A DNA stretch of 22,894 nt from a virus, in the IMG/VR virus record IMGVR_UViG_3300028422_001966, positions 1 through 22,894 of that record, one strand, 5' to 3'. Below are positions 11,406-22,648 of this stretch, in pieces (position 1 is the first letter of the stretch; every line of letters begins with the position of its first letter). Made by a program: the position numbers and the translations under genes. The notes under the pieces are model-generated. The model worked only from the letters and a program-made list of their open reading frames with translations, was not told where the DNA came from and searched no databases.

Positions 11406-11633
11406 TTAAGTTCTATTAATAATATCAGGCAATTGGTCAAGTGTAATTACTTCATTATCGCCCTCTTTTTCACCTTTATCATTCGTGTCGGGTATTTCGG
11501 CTATGAGCATAAGCAGGTTCACTAAGCTTATGCCCCAAAGTACATAATGGTATTGCCAGCCAAAATACTTACACGCTCCGTGCATTAAGTTCCAGGGGCT
11601 ATTTAACTCCCCTGCGTGTTCAGGCTCACCCCT
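11406..11633 (-). CDS. T part of tail-assembly chaperone GT (made by -1 frameshift)
   Basis: This -1 frame follows the G gene and is open down to a stop at 11406. The frame is also open upstream to an ATG at 11792, but the text there is low-quality antigenic-looking shadow, whereas the part from 11633 on reads like protein ('SPWNLMHGACKYFGWQYHYVLWGISLVNLLMLIAEIP'). If the ribosome slips at 11636-11630, G contributes 143 residues and this frame 75, giving a 218-residue GT. In lambda, G and GT coat the tape measure and recruit tail tube subunits; location between tail tube and tape measure genes supports the same role. Independent start at 11792 is the alternative. Confidence 0.65.
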   Translation of the reverse strand, partial: RGEPEHAGELNSPWNLMHGACKYFGWQYHYVLWGISLVNLLMLIAEIPDTNDKGEKEGDNEVITLDQLPDIINRT

Positions 11634-11637
11634 TTTA
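11593..11637 (-). promoter_or_regulatory. Putative -1 ribosomal frameshift site of G/GT
   Basis: In the G frame the codons ATA AAA GGG lie at 11638-11630, allowing the Lys tRNA to re-pair on AAA after a one-base back-slip. The A-site GGG would re-pair poorly, so this is not a canonical heptamer. Fifteen bases later CAGGGG and CCCCTG form a 6-bp stem with a 10-nt loop (11614-11593). The G frame ends nine codons after the slip point, at 11603. Confidence 0.45.
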
Positions 11638-12061
11638 TCAGGGTGATAGAGGTTATAAAAGACTTTAGGTCGAGCGATAACCACACCTTGAACATTGTTA
11701 ACACAAGCACCTGTACCTGTGCATTGCGTGTAAGAAAGTGTATCAGTTCCTGTGGCGGTTCTGTTGAGCTGCCGTGAAACACTATGGCACATAGCTCTAT
11801 TACATCGGTTATGTTTTTGCTCATTACGTTAAGCGCGTCTTTGTAATTATTGTCCGATACGGTATCAATATCAATATTGAGCAGTAACTCCGATATGCGC
11901 CCAAGTGTGCCTGCTGTTACAGGTTTTACCACAAATGTACGCTTACACGGTGCTAAGCCTATTTTTTGCAAAAAACTTAACTGCACGTAAGGTATGGTTA
12001 CTATCTCTCTCTTTTCTGTCAGCGAGCGGAATGCTTTTTTTATAATGCGTTCTTTATCCAT
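11603..12061 (-). CDS. Tail-assembly chaperone G
   Basis: This is a 152-residue protein without a family I can name from sequence alone. The text is helical with a positively charged N-terminus ('MDKERIIKKAFRSLTEKREIVTIPYVQLSFLQKIGLAPCKRTFVVKPVTAGTL'), an acidic Asn-rich centre, and a short C-terminus that ends soon after the frameshift site. Its position, length and overlap with a -1 frame that continues another 75 residues match lambda-type G/GT pairs, which act during assembly and are absent from virions. It is preceded by an 8-bp tandem array and a strong hairpin that separate it from the abundant tail tube gene, so lower expression is expected. Confidence 0.65.
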   Translation of the reverse strand: MDKERIIKKAFRSLTEKREIVTIPYVQLSFLQKIGLAPCKRTFVVKPVTAGTLGRISELLLNIDIDTVSDNNYKDALNVMSKNITDVIELCAIVFHGSSTEPPQELIHFLTRNAQVQVLVLTMFKVWLSLDLKSFITSITLIKGVSLNTQGS

Positions 12062-12069
12062 GTGTGTAT

Positions 12070-12115
12070 AGTTAGTGAGTTAAAGAGTTGGTGAGTTGGA
12101 GAGTTGGAGAGTTGG
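12070..12115 (-). repeat. 8-bp tandem array upstream of G
   Basis: On the plus strand there are almost six units of period 8, with AGTTGGAG as the most frequent form and AGTTAGTG, AGTTAAAG and AGTTGGTG as variants. In the transcribed (minus) sense the units end in CCAACT or TAACT. It occupies the leader of the G gene. Function unknown. Confidence 0.85.
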
Positions 12116-12123
12116 TTATGTTT

Positions 12124-13358: not shown

Positions 13359-13370
13359 GTTCTTATTTTT

Positions 13371-13391
13371 AGTATCAAGTAACCTATAACC
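13371..13391 (-). repeat. Short heptad array after a stop codon
   Basis: Three 7-bp units (transcribed sense GGTTATA, GGTTACT, TGATACT) begin directly after the TAA stop of the upstream gene. Two of these unit types are shared with the larger array at 14811-14901. Confidence 0.75.
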
Positions 13392-13711: not shown

Positions 13712-14788
13712 CTAAACTGCAGCGTCCTGAACAATAGCGTAAATACCCTTATTGTCGGCTCTTTTTATGCGGCCGCCTGCACGTAGAATTGCAGAATATA
13801 TATCGCCATAGAACTGCGGGTTATTCATATCTTCAAAAAACTCGTGAGTACCCAGTGCACGTATTACCGATTGTTTTTGCCACGCCAGTCCGGCAGCATT
13901 GTCGGAAACAGCACCAACTGCATCGGGGTCTTTAGGTACAGGTACACCGGCATTGGTGTACACCATTACCATACTGCGAGGTGCCAGTATTTCAAACCCA
14001 TACAGGCTGCCTACCACACCTGTGGCTGCATTGTATGCCGCACTAAAGTCGCGGTACTGTGTAGCATTTAGCTCGGTGGTTAACTGCTCATACATAAAAG
14101 CATCGAGCTGTATATACCTTTCGTCTTGCGGTATATTATCGGCATTCATTTTCAAGCGCAGATTTTTAATATCGCTAAGGGTTATAGCCTTACGGTTACC
14201 GGTAGCCGCAGGAGTGTAAGCTGCCACAGAGCTGCCCGTGGTACGTACTATACTTGTAGCAACTGCCGGACTCCAGTAGCGAAGCATCCAGTCGCCAATT
14301 ATTTCGGTTAAGCTCTGCTTGGTTTCGCCAAGCACGCTCTCACGCTTGTCGTAGCTTAGCTCGTATTTTTCGGCATTGCTAATTTTTATCGGGTCGCTTG
14401 TAAATTCGTCTAAGGCAAATGTTATATCTGAATCGGTTCGGTGTGTTACCGATGCAGGTATTATACTTCTATTGCGTGCTGTACCCACCTTGACTCCTGC
14501 ATTGGGTATATGAACTACCTTACCTTGATATACAAACTGGTCGGCATTTACACACTTATCCATAAATGGGTTGGCTTTAAACAGGTTACCTACTATATGG
14601 TCAATCCATATTTCCTTTTCCAAAGCCATACCAAACCCCGCCAATTGGAAGCCCGATATATACTTTATTACCTGCAAGGCTGCAACGCCCGCAAACACAC
14701 CAATAGGGCTTAATCCTACTGTTAATCCTAATATTGCCGACACCATAAAGGTGAAGCAAAACGACATAATTGCTTTAAAATGTTTCAT
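13712..14788 (-). CDS. Major capsid protein with hydrophobic N-terminal extension
   Basis: This is a 358-residue protein. From residue 54 on ('MALEKEIWIDHIVGNLFKAN', then 'QGKVVHIPNAGVKVG', 'TSDPIKISNAEKYELSYDKRESVLGETKQSL', 'YEFEILAPRS'-like text and a final 'FYGDIYSAILRAGGRIKR') it reads as an HK97-fold major capsid protein of Mu-like Bacteroidota phages. Residues 1-53 are strongly hydrophobic, with one or two possible membrane helices (5-25 and 28-46), unusual in a capsid protein. A second ATG at 14629-14627, preceded by a G-rich stretch, would give a 305-residue protein close to the Mu capsid protein length. Which start is used is open. A 91-bp heptad array fills its leader and a hairpin follows its stop. 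Confidence 0.85.
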   Translation of the reverse strand: MKHFKAIMSFCFTFMVSAILGLTVGLSPIGVFAGVAALQVIKYISGFQLAGFGMALEKEIWIDHIVGNLFKANPFMDKCVNADQFVYQGKVVHIPNAGVKVGTARNRSIIPASVTHRTDSDITFALDEFTSDPIKISNAEKYELSYDKRESVLGETKQSLTEIIGDWMLRYWSPAVATSIVRTTGSSVAAYTPAATGNRKAITLSDIKNLRLKMNADNIPQDERYIQLDAFMYEQLTTELNATQYRDFSAAYNAATGVVGSLYGFEILAPRSMVMVYTNAGVPVPKDPDAVGAVSDNAAGLAWQKQSVIRALGTHEFFEDMNNPQFYGDIYSAILRAGGRIKRADNKGIYAIVQDAAV

Positions 14789-14810
14789 TGTTTTTTAATT
14801 GTTAGATATG

Positions 14811-14901
14811 AGTATTGAGTAATGAGTAATGAGTATTGAGTATTGAGTATCAAGTATCAAGTAACCTGTAACCTGTAACCTGCAACCTGCAACCTGCAAC
14901 C
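14811..14901 (-). repeat. 13-unit heptad tandem array
   Basis: Thirteen units with strict 7-bp period fill the gap between protease stop and capsid leader. Plus-strand units drift step by step: AGTATTG or AGTAATG (five), AGTATCA (two), AGTAACC (one), TGTAACC (two), TGCAACC (three). In the transcribed sense the array begins with the last G of the TAG stop codon. Confidence 0.95.
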
Positions 14902-15404
14902 TACTTATTAAAGTTACTTGGTTCTTTACCGTACTTCGCTTTAAACAGCTTAGTATATCGCTCCCTGTTATTCTGCTTTATATCGGCTAAAGCATCGGGG
15001 GCTTTAAGCTGAAAGTCGTCGAAGGTGAAGTCTTTATACAGATCGTTATCGGTATTGTCGGGGTCGGGAATATCGGCCAGTTTACCTGTAACAGGCAATG
15101 CTTTTACCGCTTTAGTAGCCGCTTCGGGGTTGGCACTGTACAGGGTGTTGTATACCTCTTTTTGTTCGGCAGTAAGCTTACGCTTAGGGTCGTTAAGTAA
15201 GGCAGTAAACTCAACTTTAGTAACCTCGCTAAGCTTAGTTTCTATTGCTGTTTTATCGGCTATAGCCGTTTGCAACTCTTTTTCTTTTGCTGCCAGCCTT
15301 TGTACTAGGCTCTCTTTGTCGGCAGCCAGTTGTTTTACCGATACCAGTACGGCAGCCTCATCGGCACCCTCGGTAAGTTTTAAAAATGATACTACATTTT
15401 TCAT
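14901..15404 (-). CDS. Candidate nested scaffold (internal start in protease gene)
   Basis: In frame with the protease gene, the ATG at 15404-15402 (residue M156, 'MKNVVSFLKL') would yield a 167-residue scaffold without the protease part. It is preceded by an A/T-rich stretch (TTTTAAAATAAATTCAAAT) that looks like the leaders of other genes here, and the coiled coil begins just after it. This copies the I/Z design of Mu. Internal initiation is inference. Confidence 0.45.
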   Translation of the reverse strand: MKNVVSFLKLTEGADEAAVLVSVKQLAADKESLVQRLAAKEKELQTAIADKTAIETKLSEVTKVEFTALLNDPKRKLTAEQKEVYNTLYSANPEAATKAVKALPVTGKLADIPDPDNTDNDLYKDFTFDDFQLKAPDALADIKQNNRERYTKLFKAKYGKEPSNFNK

Positions 15405-16047: not shown

Positions 16048-16103
16048 GTACAGACGTAAGATTTTGCGTATCATAGTAAAGACGCAATATCTTGCGTCTC
16101 TAT
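16048..16103 (+). repeat. Two GACGCAA-type palindromes in terminase leader
   Basis: Two related imperfect palindromes follow each other: 16048-16073 (GTACAGACGTAAGATTTTGC...) and 16076-16103 (GTAAAGACGCAATATCTTGC..., stem AGACGCAA/TTGCGTCT). A third copy is at 18079-18105. They look like REP-like mobile palindromes and would fold into hairpins in the mRNA leader. Confidence 0.75.
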
Positions 16104-16116
16104 AAAAAAAAGAATT

Positions 16117-16563: not shown

Positions 16564-18077
16564 TGTCGATAACCGCTACTGAATTAAAAAACTGGGAACT
16601 GTTTACGCAGTCGTTGCTTAAAGAGCAACCTGTACCACAGGAAAACGAAGCCGAACGGATAAAACGTAAAGCTGAACTGGAACACAATTTTGAACAATGG
16701 GTAAAATACTACTTTAGTAAATACGCCACTGCCGAACCTGCACCATTTCATAAAAACGACAGTAAAGTATTGCTCAATAATAAGCGTATATATATAGTAC
16801 GTCCGTGGAGCAGGGAAATGGCAAAAGATGCACGTACCATGTTTGAATTTTTATATATGGCTCTTACAGGTAAAATACATGTGGTACTTTTTTTTAGTCA
16901 CAACCAGGAACAAGCTAAGAACCTGATTAAGCCATGGAAAATAAGCCTTGAATTTAACCAGCGTATAATAGCCGACTATGGCAACCAACGTACCGTAAAC
17001 TGGACCGACGACCAATTTACAGCCAAATGCGGATGCACATTTTATGCATTCGGTTCCGGACAGGCTCCAAGGGGTACACGTGATGAAGAAATACGCCCCG
17101 ATGCTATTGTATTTTCCGATATTGATACTGACGAAGAGGTGCGAAACCCTGAGCGTGTTAAGAAAAAATGGGAATGGATAGAACAGGCGGTACTGCCAAC
17201 AGTATCGGTAAGTGGTAATGTTCGAATTGTATTCTTAGGTAACATTATTGGTAAAGATACCTGTATAACTCGTGCAATGAAGTATGCCGACCATTATCAG
17301 GTAGTTAATATTCGCAATAAGAACGGTGTAAGTTCGTGGAGTAAAAACACCGAGGAGCAGATAGACTGGCTACTTAGCAAAATGAGTTATGCAAGTAGTC
17401 AAAAAGAATACTTTAACAACCCTATTCAGGAGGGTTCTGTTTTTAAAGACCTACGTTGGGATAAAGTACCGCCACTATCACAATTCAAATTCCTGGTTGC
17501 CTACGGCGACCCCGCACCCAGTAATCGCGAAAACAAAAAAAACAGCCATAAAGCAGCTTTCTTACTTGGCATAAAAGACGGTGTTCTGTATGTAATAACA
17601 GGCTGGCTTGAAAGGGCTACCAATGCTAAGTTTGTACAGTGGTTTTGGGATATGCATACTTATGTTAATAATAAAACCCACATATACACATTCATAGAGA
17701 ACAATACCCTGCAAGACCCTTTTTACGAACAAGTGTATATACCACTATTTGAAGAGGCAAGTCGCACAAACGGCAAAGCTATTCACCCAAGCCCTGATAC
17801 TCGTAAGAAGCCCGATAAGTTTACACGCATCGAGGGGTCGCTTGAACCTATGCATCGTATGGGCAAACTGGTACTTAATATTGCAGAACAAAAGAACCCT
17901 AATATGCAACGACTGGCTGAACAGTTCGAGGCTGTAGAACCAACACTTAGTGCCAATGTCGACGGCGTAGATGCCATAGAAGGCGGCTACTGGATACTCA
18001 ACAACAAACTTGTAGTACTAAAACAAAGCGATATTGTAATTAAACAACGAACCCGAACCGGCAATAAACATTATTAA
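16563..18077 (+). CDS. Terminase large subunit
   Basis: This is a 504-residue ATPase-nuclease that pumps DNA into the prohead and cuts it. The ATPase part has a divergent Walker A-like 'RPWSREMAKDAR' at residues 80-91 and a Walker B 'DAIVFSDIDTDEE' at 180-192. The nuclease part (RNase H-like) shows the first metal Asp at D316 in 'FLVAYGDPAPS', a probable second acidic residue E379 in 'YTFIENN', and D470 in 'DGVDAIEGGY'. Length and motif order fit Mu-like (gp28-type) large subunits. It sits directly after the small subunit and before DUF1320 and portal genes. Confidence 0.92.
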   Translation: MSITATELKNWELFTQSLLKEQPVPQENEAERIKRKAELEHNFEQWVKYYFSKYATAEPAPFHKNDSKVLLNNKRIYIVRPWSREMAKDARTMFEFLYMALTGKIHVVLFFSHNQEQAKNLIKPWKISLEFNQRIIADYGNQRTVNWTDDQFTAKCGCTFYAFGSGQAPRGTRDEEIRPDAIVFSDIDTDEEVRNPERVKKKWEWIEQAVLPTVSVSGNVRIVFLGNIIGKDTCITRAMKYADHYQVVNIRNKNGVSSWSKNTEEQIDWLLSKMSYASSQKEYFNNPIQEGSVFKDLRWDKVPPLSQFKFLVAYGDPAPSNRENKKNSHKAAFLLGIKDGVLYVITGWLERATNAKFVQWFWDMHTYVNNKTHIYTFIENNTLQDPFYEQVYIPLFEEASRTNGKAIHPSPDTRKKPDKFTRIEGSLEPMHRMGKLVLNIAEQKNPNMQRLAEQFEAVEPTLSANVDGVDAIEGGYWILNNKLVVLKQSDIVIKQRTRTGNKHY

Positions 18078-18078
18078 T

Positions 18079-18105
18079 GTACAGACGCAAGATTTTGCGT
18101 CTCTG
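18079..18105 (+). repeat. GACGCAA-type palindrome after terminase
   Basis: AGACGCAA and TTGCGTCT (18082-18101) form a perfect 8-bp stem around a GATT loop, between the terminase stop and the next gene. It is nearly identical to the copies at 16048-16103. Confidence 0.8.
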
Positions 18106-18117
18106 ATAAATAAAATT

Positions 18118-21863: not shown

Positions 21864-22295
21864 ATGGATTTAATTAAACAAAACTTTGAGGCAATAAGAG
21901 ACAGGCTAATAGCCCAAGTGCCCGAAATACGGTGGATAGACATGGACGATGAACAACTAACGGCTTACGAAGCTCCACCCATAAGCTTTCCATGTGCTTT
22001 GATTGATACACAACAAGTAGGCTATAATAGTTCAGAAGATTTTAACAGCAGTGCTGCTGTTCGTGTAACTGTTCAGTTCGGGTTCAAAACAATGGAAAGT
22101 ACCAACCACCTTACACCCAATAGTAAGGCCTTTGAGTATTCTGAAATATTGCAAAAGGCTGTAAATGCAATTCATGGCTTTGAGCCTAAAAATAGTAGTG
22201 GATATACAAAAACAGGAGTAATAAGAATTAAGCGTCCGGGAATAAAGGTTTTTGAGGCTAGTTTTGATATTAACTGGTTTGGAGCAAATGTATAG
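21864..22295 (+). CDS. Probable tail terminator / head-tail joining protein
   Basis: This is a 143-residue protein. I recognise no exact family. The layout ('MDLIKQNFEAIRDRLIAQVPEIRWIDMDDEQL', then 'ISFPCALIDTQQVGYN', 'AAVRVTVQFGFKTM', 'EYSEILQKAVNAIHGF', and a final beta-strand 'FEASFDINWFG') is the pattern of tail terminator (gpU-like) or minor neck proteins that cap the tail tube. It is the last gene of the plus unit, after the gpG-like gene. A degenerate heptad array follows its stop codon. Confidence 0.6.
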   Translation: MDLIKQNFEAIRDRLIAQVPEIRWIDMDDEQLTAYEAPPISFPCALIDTQQVGYNSSEDFNSSAAVRVTVQFGFKTMESTNHLTPNSKAFEYSEILQKAVNAIHGFEPKNSSGYTKTGVIRIKRPGIKVFEASFDINWFGANV

Positions 22296-22300
22296 ACACT

Positions 22301-22351
22301 GGTTACAGGACTCTTGATACTGCCGACTGTGTACTGAGGTACTGCCAACTG
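22301..22351 (+). repeat. Degenerate heptad array after the plus unit
   Basis: Following the TAG stop (22293-22295) come GGTTACA, GGACTCT, TGATACT, GCCGACT, GTGTACT, an 8-base variant and GCCAACT. Units keep the same sense (GGTTACA first, then xxxxACT) as the arrays in the minus unit. Confidence 0.65.
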
Positions 22352-22354
22352 AAA

Positions 22355-22648
22355 TCAATCCCAGTTATACCAGCCGTACTCTTTGCGCAGTTCCTTTAGT
22401 TCGGGTTTACTCTTCATAAATGTATCTATTACATCGCGAAGGTCGGTAAGTATGTCAACTATACGCTTTTCCGACAAGAAAAATTCATTGCTTAGTTGAT
22501 ATATAATATCATCGAATCTAAGGCGTTGGTAGTGCATATGATAGTAATAGCGAGCCGAAAGCACCATATTGCGCCGTTCTTTGTTATCGGACGGTGCAAT
22601 TTTAAGGGGTTCTAAATGCTTATTGAATAGTATATCCTGACCTCGCAT
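22355..22648 (-). CDS. Unknown small protein, possible DNA-binding
   Basis: This 97-residue protein lies alone on the minus strand. I recognise no family. It has an N-terminal charged part, a Tyr/His-rich helix ('SARYYYHMHYQRLRFDDIIYQLSNEFFLSEKRIVDILTDLRDVI') whose 'LSNEFFLSEKRIVDIL' segment resembles a helix-turn-helix, and a C-terminal 'ELRKEYGWYNWD'. It is divergent from the next gene. A perfect TAnnTTTG-type box (TATTTTTG, 22660-22653) sits four bases before its ATG, too close for a long leader. A regulatory role is a guess. Confidence 0.6.
   Translation of the reverse strand: MRGQDILFNKHLEPLKIAPSDNKERRNMVLSARYYYHMHYQRLRFDDIIYQLSNEFFLSEKRIVDILTDLRDVIDTFMKSKPELKELRKEYGWYNWD

Follow-up and report, generated by a model that had tools for sequence, protein, structure and literature searches.

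Intergenic heptad arrays of a Bacteroidota genome and its prophage lead inward from the edges of the flanking genes

Results

The window (the whole stretch of DNA analysed, 22,894 nt) is a prophage that carries terminase, portal, capsid and tape-measure genes in two opposed units, a layout resembling that of Porphyromonas gingivalis phages. It lies in contig 44 of the draft genome of a member of the Bacteroidota (3.7 Mb in 106 contigs, 36% GC; here termed G000). This is the sole genome of its genus in our comparison set, with other genera of the family behind it, and a galT protein comparison gave Bacteroidales/Salinivirgaceae MAGs as the nearest named relatives.

The gap under study separates two convergent prophage genes and is a degenerate heptad array over its entire length (Table 1), with 23 of 52 matches at lag 7 versus 8-13 at lags 3-6 and 8-13 (shuffle p = 0.0016). 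The 97-aa ORF that converges on it gave no match in a Pfam comparison. The TAG stop of the plus-strand gene occupies 22293-22295 and GGTTACA is the sole unit in the gap that leads inward from that gene, while TGATACT lies at 22315-22321 and is followed by units ending in ACT. All of the heptad words named in the first-pass annotation are present, including GGTTATA-GGTTACT-TGATACT on the minus strand (13391-13371) right after a TAA, but its reading of the focal units as lying in the sense of the plus gene takes only one of the two flanking genes as reference. The minus-strand gene at 22355-22648 stops at 22357-22355, so the gap is convergent and "same sense" there depends on which gene is taken as the reference. 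AGT recurs at minus-strand offsets 4, 11, 19, 26 and 33, and the TGATACT and ACT-ended units are AGT-led heptads of the opposite strand, inward from the minus gene. Folding of the gap gave no stable stem-loop after the stop (z 0.59 and -0.25).

Table 1. Genes and repeat arrays of the prophage window, with the strand on which each array is read inward.
Feature	Positions	Strand	Basis or remark
Prophage gene, tail completion position (phrog_6911)	21864..22295	+	Ends with TAG at the focal gap; ORF list, Porphyromonas phage synteny
97-aa ORF converging on the focal gap	22355..22648	-	Stop TGA at 22357-22355
Entire intergenic gap between convergent prophage genes, degenerate heptad array	22296..22354	.	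Period-7 peak; 59 nt
GGTTACA unit, inward from the TAG stop of the plus gene	22301..22307	+	Sequence
AGT-led units AGTTGGC AGTACCTC AGTACAC AGTCGGC AGTATCA, inward from the TGA stop of the minus gene	22315..22350	-	Sequence
GGTTATA GGTTACT TGATACT after the TAA stop of the 13392-13652 gene	13371..13391	-	Sequence
RGTTRYA heptads from the TAG stop of the 14901-15869 gene, TAG in register (TAG/GTT)	14863..14902	-	Sequence
AGTATTG/AGTAATG/AGTATCA heptads, inward from the start side of the major capsid gene (13712-14788, minus)	14809..14862	+	Sequence
Octad array AGTTNNNG, inward from the start side of the 11603-12061 minus ORF	12070..12116	+	Period 8, not 7

Three further arrayed gaps lie in the same window. 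Lag-7 periodicity is significant at 13359-13391 (p = 0.0006), and 14809-14902 is a strong, near-perfect heptad array built like the focal gap, with RGTTRYA units from the stop side and AGTATTG/AGTATCA units from the start side, head to head; it likewise folds into no stable stem-loop (14789-14903, z -0.93 and 0.82). The octads at 12070-12116 (AGTTNNNG) and those at three loci of G003, a genome of another genus in the same family (L207, L215 and L200, TGAAGGAC), obey the same inward rule as the heptads. The homologous gap is 59 nt long in the most closely related viral contigs (58% identity in the capsid) and 17 nt in Porphyromonas phages, in each case without heptads or an array, and thus the prophage array arose in the G000 lineage. 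We therefore rejected the idea of phage-borne cargo, since related phage gaps lack arrays and host gaps have them. A related viral contig (L218, 6473-6507) carries heptads of its own with another sequence (TTTAGAGTTTAGATGTTAGAATTTAGAC), and phage arrays may follow the host lineage. A second repeat family in the window, unrelated to the heptads, consists of near-identical short palindromes (GTACAGACGCAAGATTTTGCGTCTC) at 16048-16111 and 18072-18114, which flank the 16117-18077 genes, among them the gene for the terminase large subunit.

Genome-wide, a pattern search of G000 gave 74 matches to a pair of GGTTRYA units and 73 to a TACT triple, with none for the reversed-pattern control of either. 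Within 745 kb there were 62 period-7 arrays, all of them intergenic, the remaining periods between 5 and 12 giving 0-20 each, and three successive RGT-led units occurred at 37 per Mb in coding sequence versus 2956 per Mb in gaps. In this 7-nt excess and this intergenic location the arrays match satellites of the heptanucleotide LSSR (long simple sequence repeat) and STRR type. The sample comprised about 0.75 Mb of G000 stretches plus all remaining GGTT sites, with genes, including their starts, called by a simple codon-usage script; the 20-kb stretches were partly picked around TACT arrays and the GGTT list was not so picked. Units inside one array are not independent, which makes counts of arrays and of edges more reliable than counts of units; some stop-edge cases are paralogues.

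The orientation of these arrays follows the edges of the gap. Of 52 GGTTRYA arrays, 33 have a 5' end no more than 20 nt from a gene edge and none has a 3' end that close, with median distances of 10 and 154.5 nt, respectively. GGTTRYA units within 30 nt of an edge point inward without exception, both at stops (32:0) and at starts (18:0; 50:0 in total), which means that the arrays are sense after stops and antisense before starts. AGT-led units that lack GG (AGTATTG, AGTAATG, AGTAGTG) are inward in a ratio of 40:8 within 32 nt of edges, and for any RGT-led triple the count is 187 inward and 72 outward overall and 69 versus 6 within 30 nt; co-directional, convergent and divergent gaps all lean to a similar extent.

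The same result was obtained with a unit-agnostic score, which compares G with C on the inward strand of period-7 and period-8 arrays. At stop edges G exceeded C in every array (31:0), as against 268:227 at edges without arrays (p = 1.4e-8), and at start edges the ratio was 17:1, as against 322:215 without arrays, itself a mild lean in the same direction. By gap type, the rule is present in convergent (11:0) and co-directional gaps (59:17), while the divergent gaps (4:3) are too few to display it. Start-edge arrays leave 6-20 nt before the ATG. Thus, at stops and starts alike, the G-rich or purine-led strand (RGTTRYA, AGTATTG, GGAGACT and others) is the one that leads from the nearest gene edge into the gap.

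The first-pass annotation had proposed that heptad orientation follows transcription and is linked to stop codons. The genome-wide stop-codon bias is real, GGTTRYA within 20 nt after a stop being sense in 13 cases and antisense in none, but it is not tied to transcription: co-directional gaps contain 18 sense and 17 antisense arrays, which rules out a transcription rule, and the units before starts are antisense. TGATACT, which had been assigned the same stop-linked orientation, has no preference (5 sense, 8 antisense within 42 nt after stops). The evidence supports replacing the proposed rule with a DNA-level one relative to gap edges.

The units themselves differ between lineages. GGTT arrays number 74 in G000 versus 0-2 in each of 39 relatives, and hence the units are lineage-specific. 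In G003 the gaps are filled with different heptads and octads (AGTTAGG, GTATTGG, TGAAGGAC), two of the TGAAGGAC arrays beginning with the TGA stop codon itself, and arrays of other units in genus g4/G003 are inward in 22 cases and outward in 2; G005 has almost no arrays. GGTTRYA was found in 16 of 198 sampled genomes, scattered among distant Bacteroidota. In a distant group (G050/G055) the lean is weaker, with the 5' end of GGTT arrays within 30 nt of an edge in 12 of 30 and the 3' end in 2 of 30, and in G175 the 5' end is near an edge in 4 of 5 and the 3' end in 1 of 5. The arrays are therefore lineage-specific, while the orientation rule is common across lineages.

Several other features of G000 accompany the arrays. 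A dispersed palindromic element of ~100 bp, which looks like a MITE or REP family, has heptad arms (AGTATCAAGTACAAAGTATCAAG and CTTGATACTTTGTACTTGATACT), a conserved loop (ACAACTACACAAGT) and partly conserved flanks, and occurs at C48:25645, C79:55618, C92:41409 and 115034, C101:19697, C10:278484, C70:8557, C90:47547 and C82:23104 (L036-L062). A multicopy protein family with a PDDEXK_9 nuclease domain, whose members end in MVWERFED/N (L039, L111, L113, L125, L126, L130 and L132), has GGTT/GGAGACT heptads after its stops, and several of these gaps also have TTAATTTGTTATAATTTGCGAATTAGCGGC in common. Several contigs (C87, C99 and C45) end ~200-300 nt or less from a GGTT array, which suggests that the arrays or their paralogous surroundings break the assembly.

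Discussion

The element described here is a fast-changing, lineage-specific intergenic tandem repeat with a unit of 7, sometimes 8, nt that occupies host and prophage gaps alike. We propose, with a probability of roughly 0.55, that the arrays are intergenic satellites, specific to their lineage, which grew by slippage and are kept in place by a DNA-level polarity together with selection on the neighbouring genes. By analogy with bacterial long simple sequence repeats and cyanobacterial STRRs, units would be gained, lost and changed by replication slippage, and the arrays would be tolerated in gaps and excluded from coding sequence. The arrays downstream of the copies of one multicopy G000 gene differ by whole units, as slippage predicts, in this case among paralogues of one genome.

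Slippage by itself does not account for the placement of arrays beside genes. Polar growth, in which the newest units would lie nearest the gene, was rejected, as the two halves of the arrays are equally homogeneous, with no gradient between them (0.80 vs 0.78, p = 0.25). Nor did the arrays create the stop codons that they follow: the gltD and ilvB orthologues end no more than one or two residues from the G000 stop, and those of thiH some two residues later, and hence the stops in front of the arrays are essentially native. This leaves two candidates, a DNA-level polarity and selection on strand composition.

Of these we prefer, with modest confidence, the polarity. DNA synthesis along the purine-led strand would reach an array from its 3' side, and stalling or misalignment there may lead to preferential loss of the template on the 5' side, by analogy with the deletions at G-rich DNA of Caenorhabditis elegans dog-1 mutants (PMC4654259). 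Purifying selection would halt this 5'-side loss at the gene, with the outcome that the 5' end of the array abuts the stop codon or, at a start, a short leader sequence upstream of the coding region. Units of the AGTATTG type, which lack GG, should not form G-quadruplexes, and a polymerase stall at such arrays would need another cause.

The alternative that survives best, though we consider it unlikely, is selection on orientation itself, whereby arrays arise anywhere and in both orientations and those with a C-rich sense strand after a stop or a G-rich sense strand before a start harm expression and are purged. Avoidance of G before starts would fit the mild baseline at start edges without arrays (322:215), and start-edge arrays leave 6-20 nt before the ATG. 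At stop edges, however, the baseline has little bias to match (109:112; 268:227), yet the arrays there are 31:0. Convergent stops, at which transcription downstream should be of least consequence, obey the rule just as strongly (11:0), and this argues against effects on such transcription.

Nucleation at the gene edge appears unlikely as well. Tandem duplication of a stop codon and the next 4-5 nt would place the stop in register and make the array necessarily sense, and among the 25 stop-edge GGTT arrays TAG/GTT is in register in 12 and TAG is the stop in 17, as compared with 24% of all genes; the TGAAGGAC octads that start at TGA stops in G003 are of the same kind. Nucleation leaves unexplained both the mirror-image rule at starts and the sharing of one unit by dozens of loci, several in-register cases are paralogues, and in the unit-agnostic test all three stop bases were in register in only 5 of 34, for which reason we rejected it as the full cause. 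The in-register TAG/GTT junctions could be microhomology joints or nucleation sites.

We regard it as improbable that the heptads are the inverted ends of palindromic mobile elements (MITE- or BIME-like). Some TGATACT arrays are indeed arms of the dispersed palindrome and two gaps have GGTT arrays at both ends, but most GGTT arrays lack an inverted GGTT partner, and in the window gap the two opposing arms consist of different units and give no signal of complementarity. The arrays resemble REP/BIME palindromes in being short intergenic repeats that sometimes occur as inverted pairs and differ from them in that the GGTT gaps lack a hairpin. Least probable is the RNA-level role, or copying at transcript 3' ends, suggested in the first-pass annotation: a 3'-UTR signal, terminator or processing or protein site in the sense of the upstream gene would account for the 13:0 sense excess after stops, but antisense arrays before starts are equally many, the co-directional split is 18:17, TGATACT is unbiased, and a hairpin or terminator was rejected on folding z values near 0, heptad gaps folding no better than other gaps (median z -0.59 vs -0.29, p = 0.44).

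Satellites of this kind have precedents. In cyanobacterial STRRs heptanucleotide units are the commonest class and an origin by slippage has been proposed. The arrays described here share the heptanucleotide unit and the proposed slippage origin with LSSRs and STRRs, and an inward orientation rule is not known from the surveys that described those repeats. As cited in PMC4679880, heptanucleotides are also the commonest class of long simple sequence repeats, for which slippage was proposed (Mrazek et al., 2007).

The closest counterparts are the intergenic heptads GGGAATC of Xanthomonas and GGGGA(C/T)T of Nostoc (Rehm et al., 2015; PMC4692102), which lie near the 5' neighbouring ORF whatever its direction, at a mean of 28 vs 160 nt. 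This is the same positional rule as the one reported here, where the medians are 10 and 154.5 nt, and further likenesses are the intergenic location, the variation in unit number, the convergent inverted pairs, the occurrence mostly between aligned ORFs and the overlap with stop codons. The layout in Xanthomonas and Nostoc was tentatively tied to G-quadruplexes, no function was found and the layout itself was left unexplained (PMC4692102). Those units form G-quadruplexes, with GGG runs and a preference for four copies, whereas the units here carry at most GG, AGTATTG and AGTAGTG carrying none, and by inspection the four G-tracts of a three-tetrad G-quadruplex are absent. The present arrays differ also in that they occur in Bacteroidota, in a genome of 36% GC as well as in its prophage, and in that octads and other genera are included.

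A second comparison is with the TAACTGA heptads of Beggiatoaceae, cyanobacteria and a few Bacteroidetes (MacGregor, 2015; PMC4679880), which are likewise intergenic near gene edges and have units that drift in steps of 7. The strand that leads inward from start codons in that system is AGTTATC-like, as here, and hence the orientation before starts is comparable. It differs in having a single dominant unit, mostly upstream of starts, that was proposed as a site for a translational regulator (PMC4679880); a forward TAACTGA unit before starts was not found here, the units being RGTTRYA, AGTATCA, AGTATTG and others.

The G000 arrays belong with the Xanthomonas/Nostoc and TAACTGA heptads, and what they add is that the rule does not depend on G-quadruplex units and reaches Bacteroidota and a prophage. 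Units without GG, octads, another genus with units of its own and, to a lesser degree, a distant group all obey the rule, which separates it from both G-quadruplex folding and transcription. The ratio of inward to outward arrays near gene edges is a countable signature that can be scored in any genome and is testable in culture. We tentatively suggest, as a possibility only, that a general DNA-level polarity of bacterial tandem-repeat turnover, independent of transcription and G-quadruplexes, drives heptad and octad arrays of every kind to have their purine-led strand start at a gene edge. If true, one mutational mechanism would account for the arrays of Xanthomonas, Nostoc, Beggiatoaceae and Bacteroidota.
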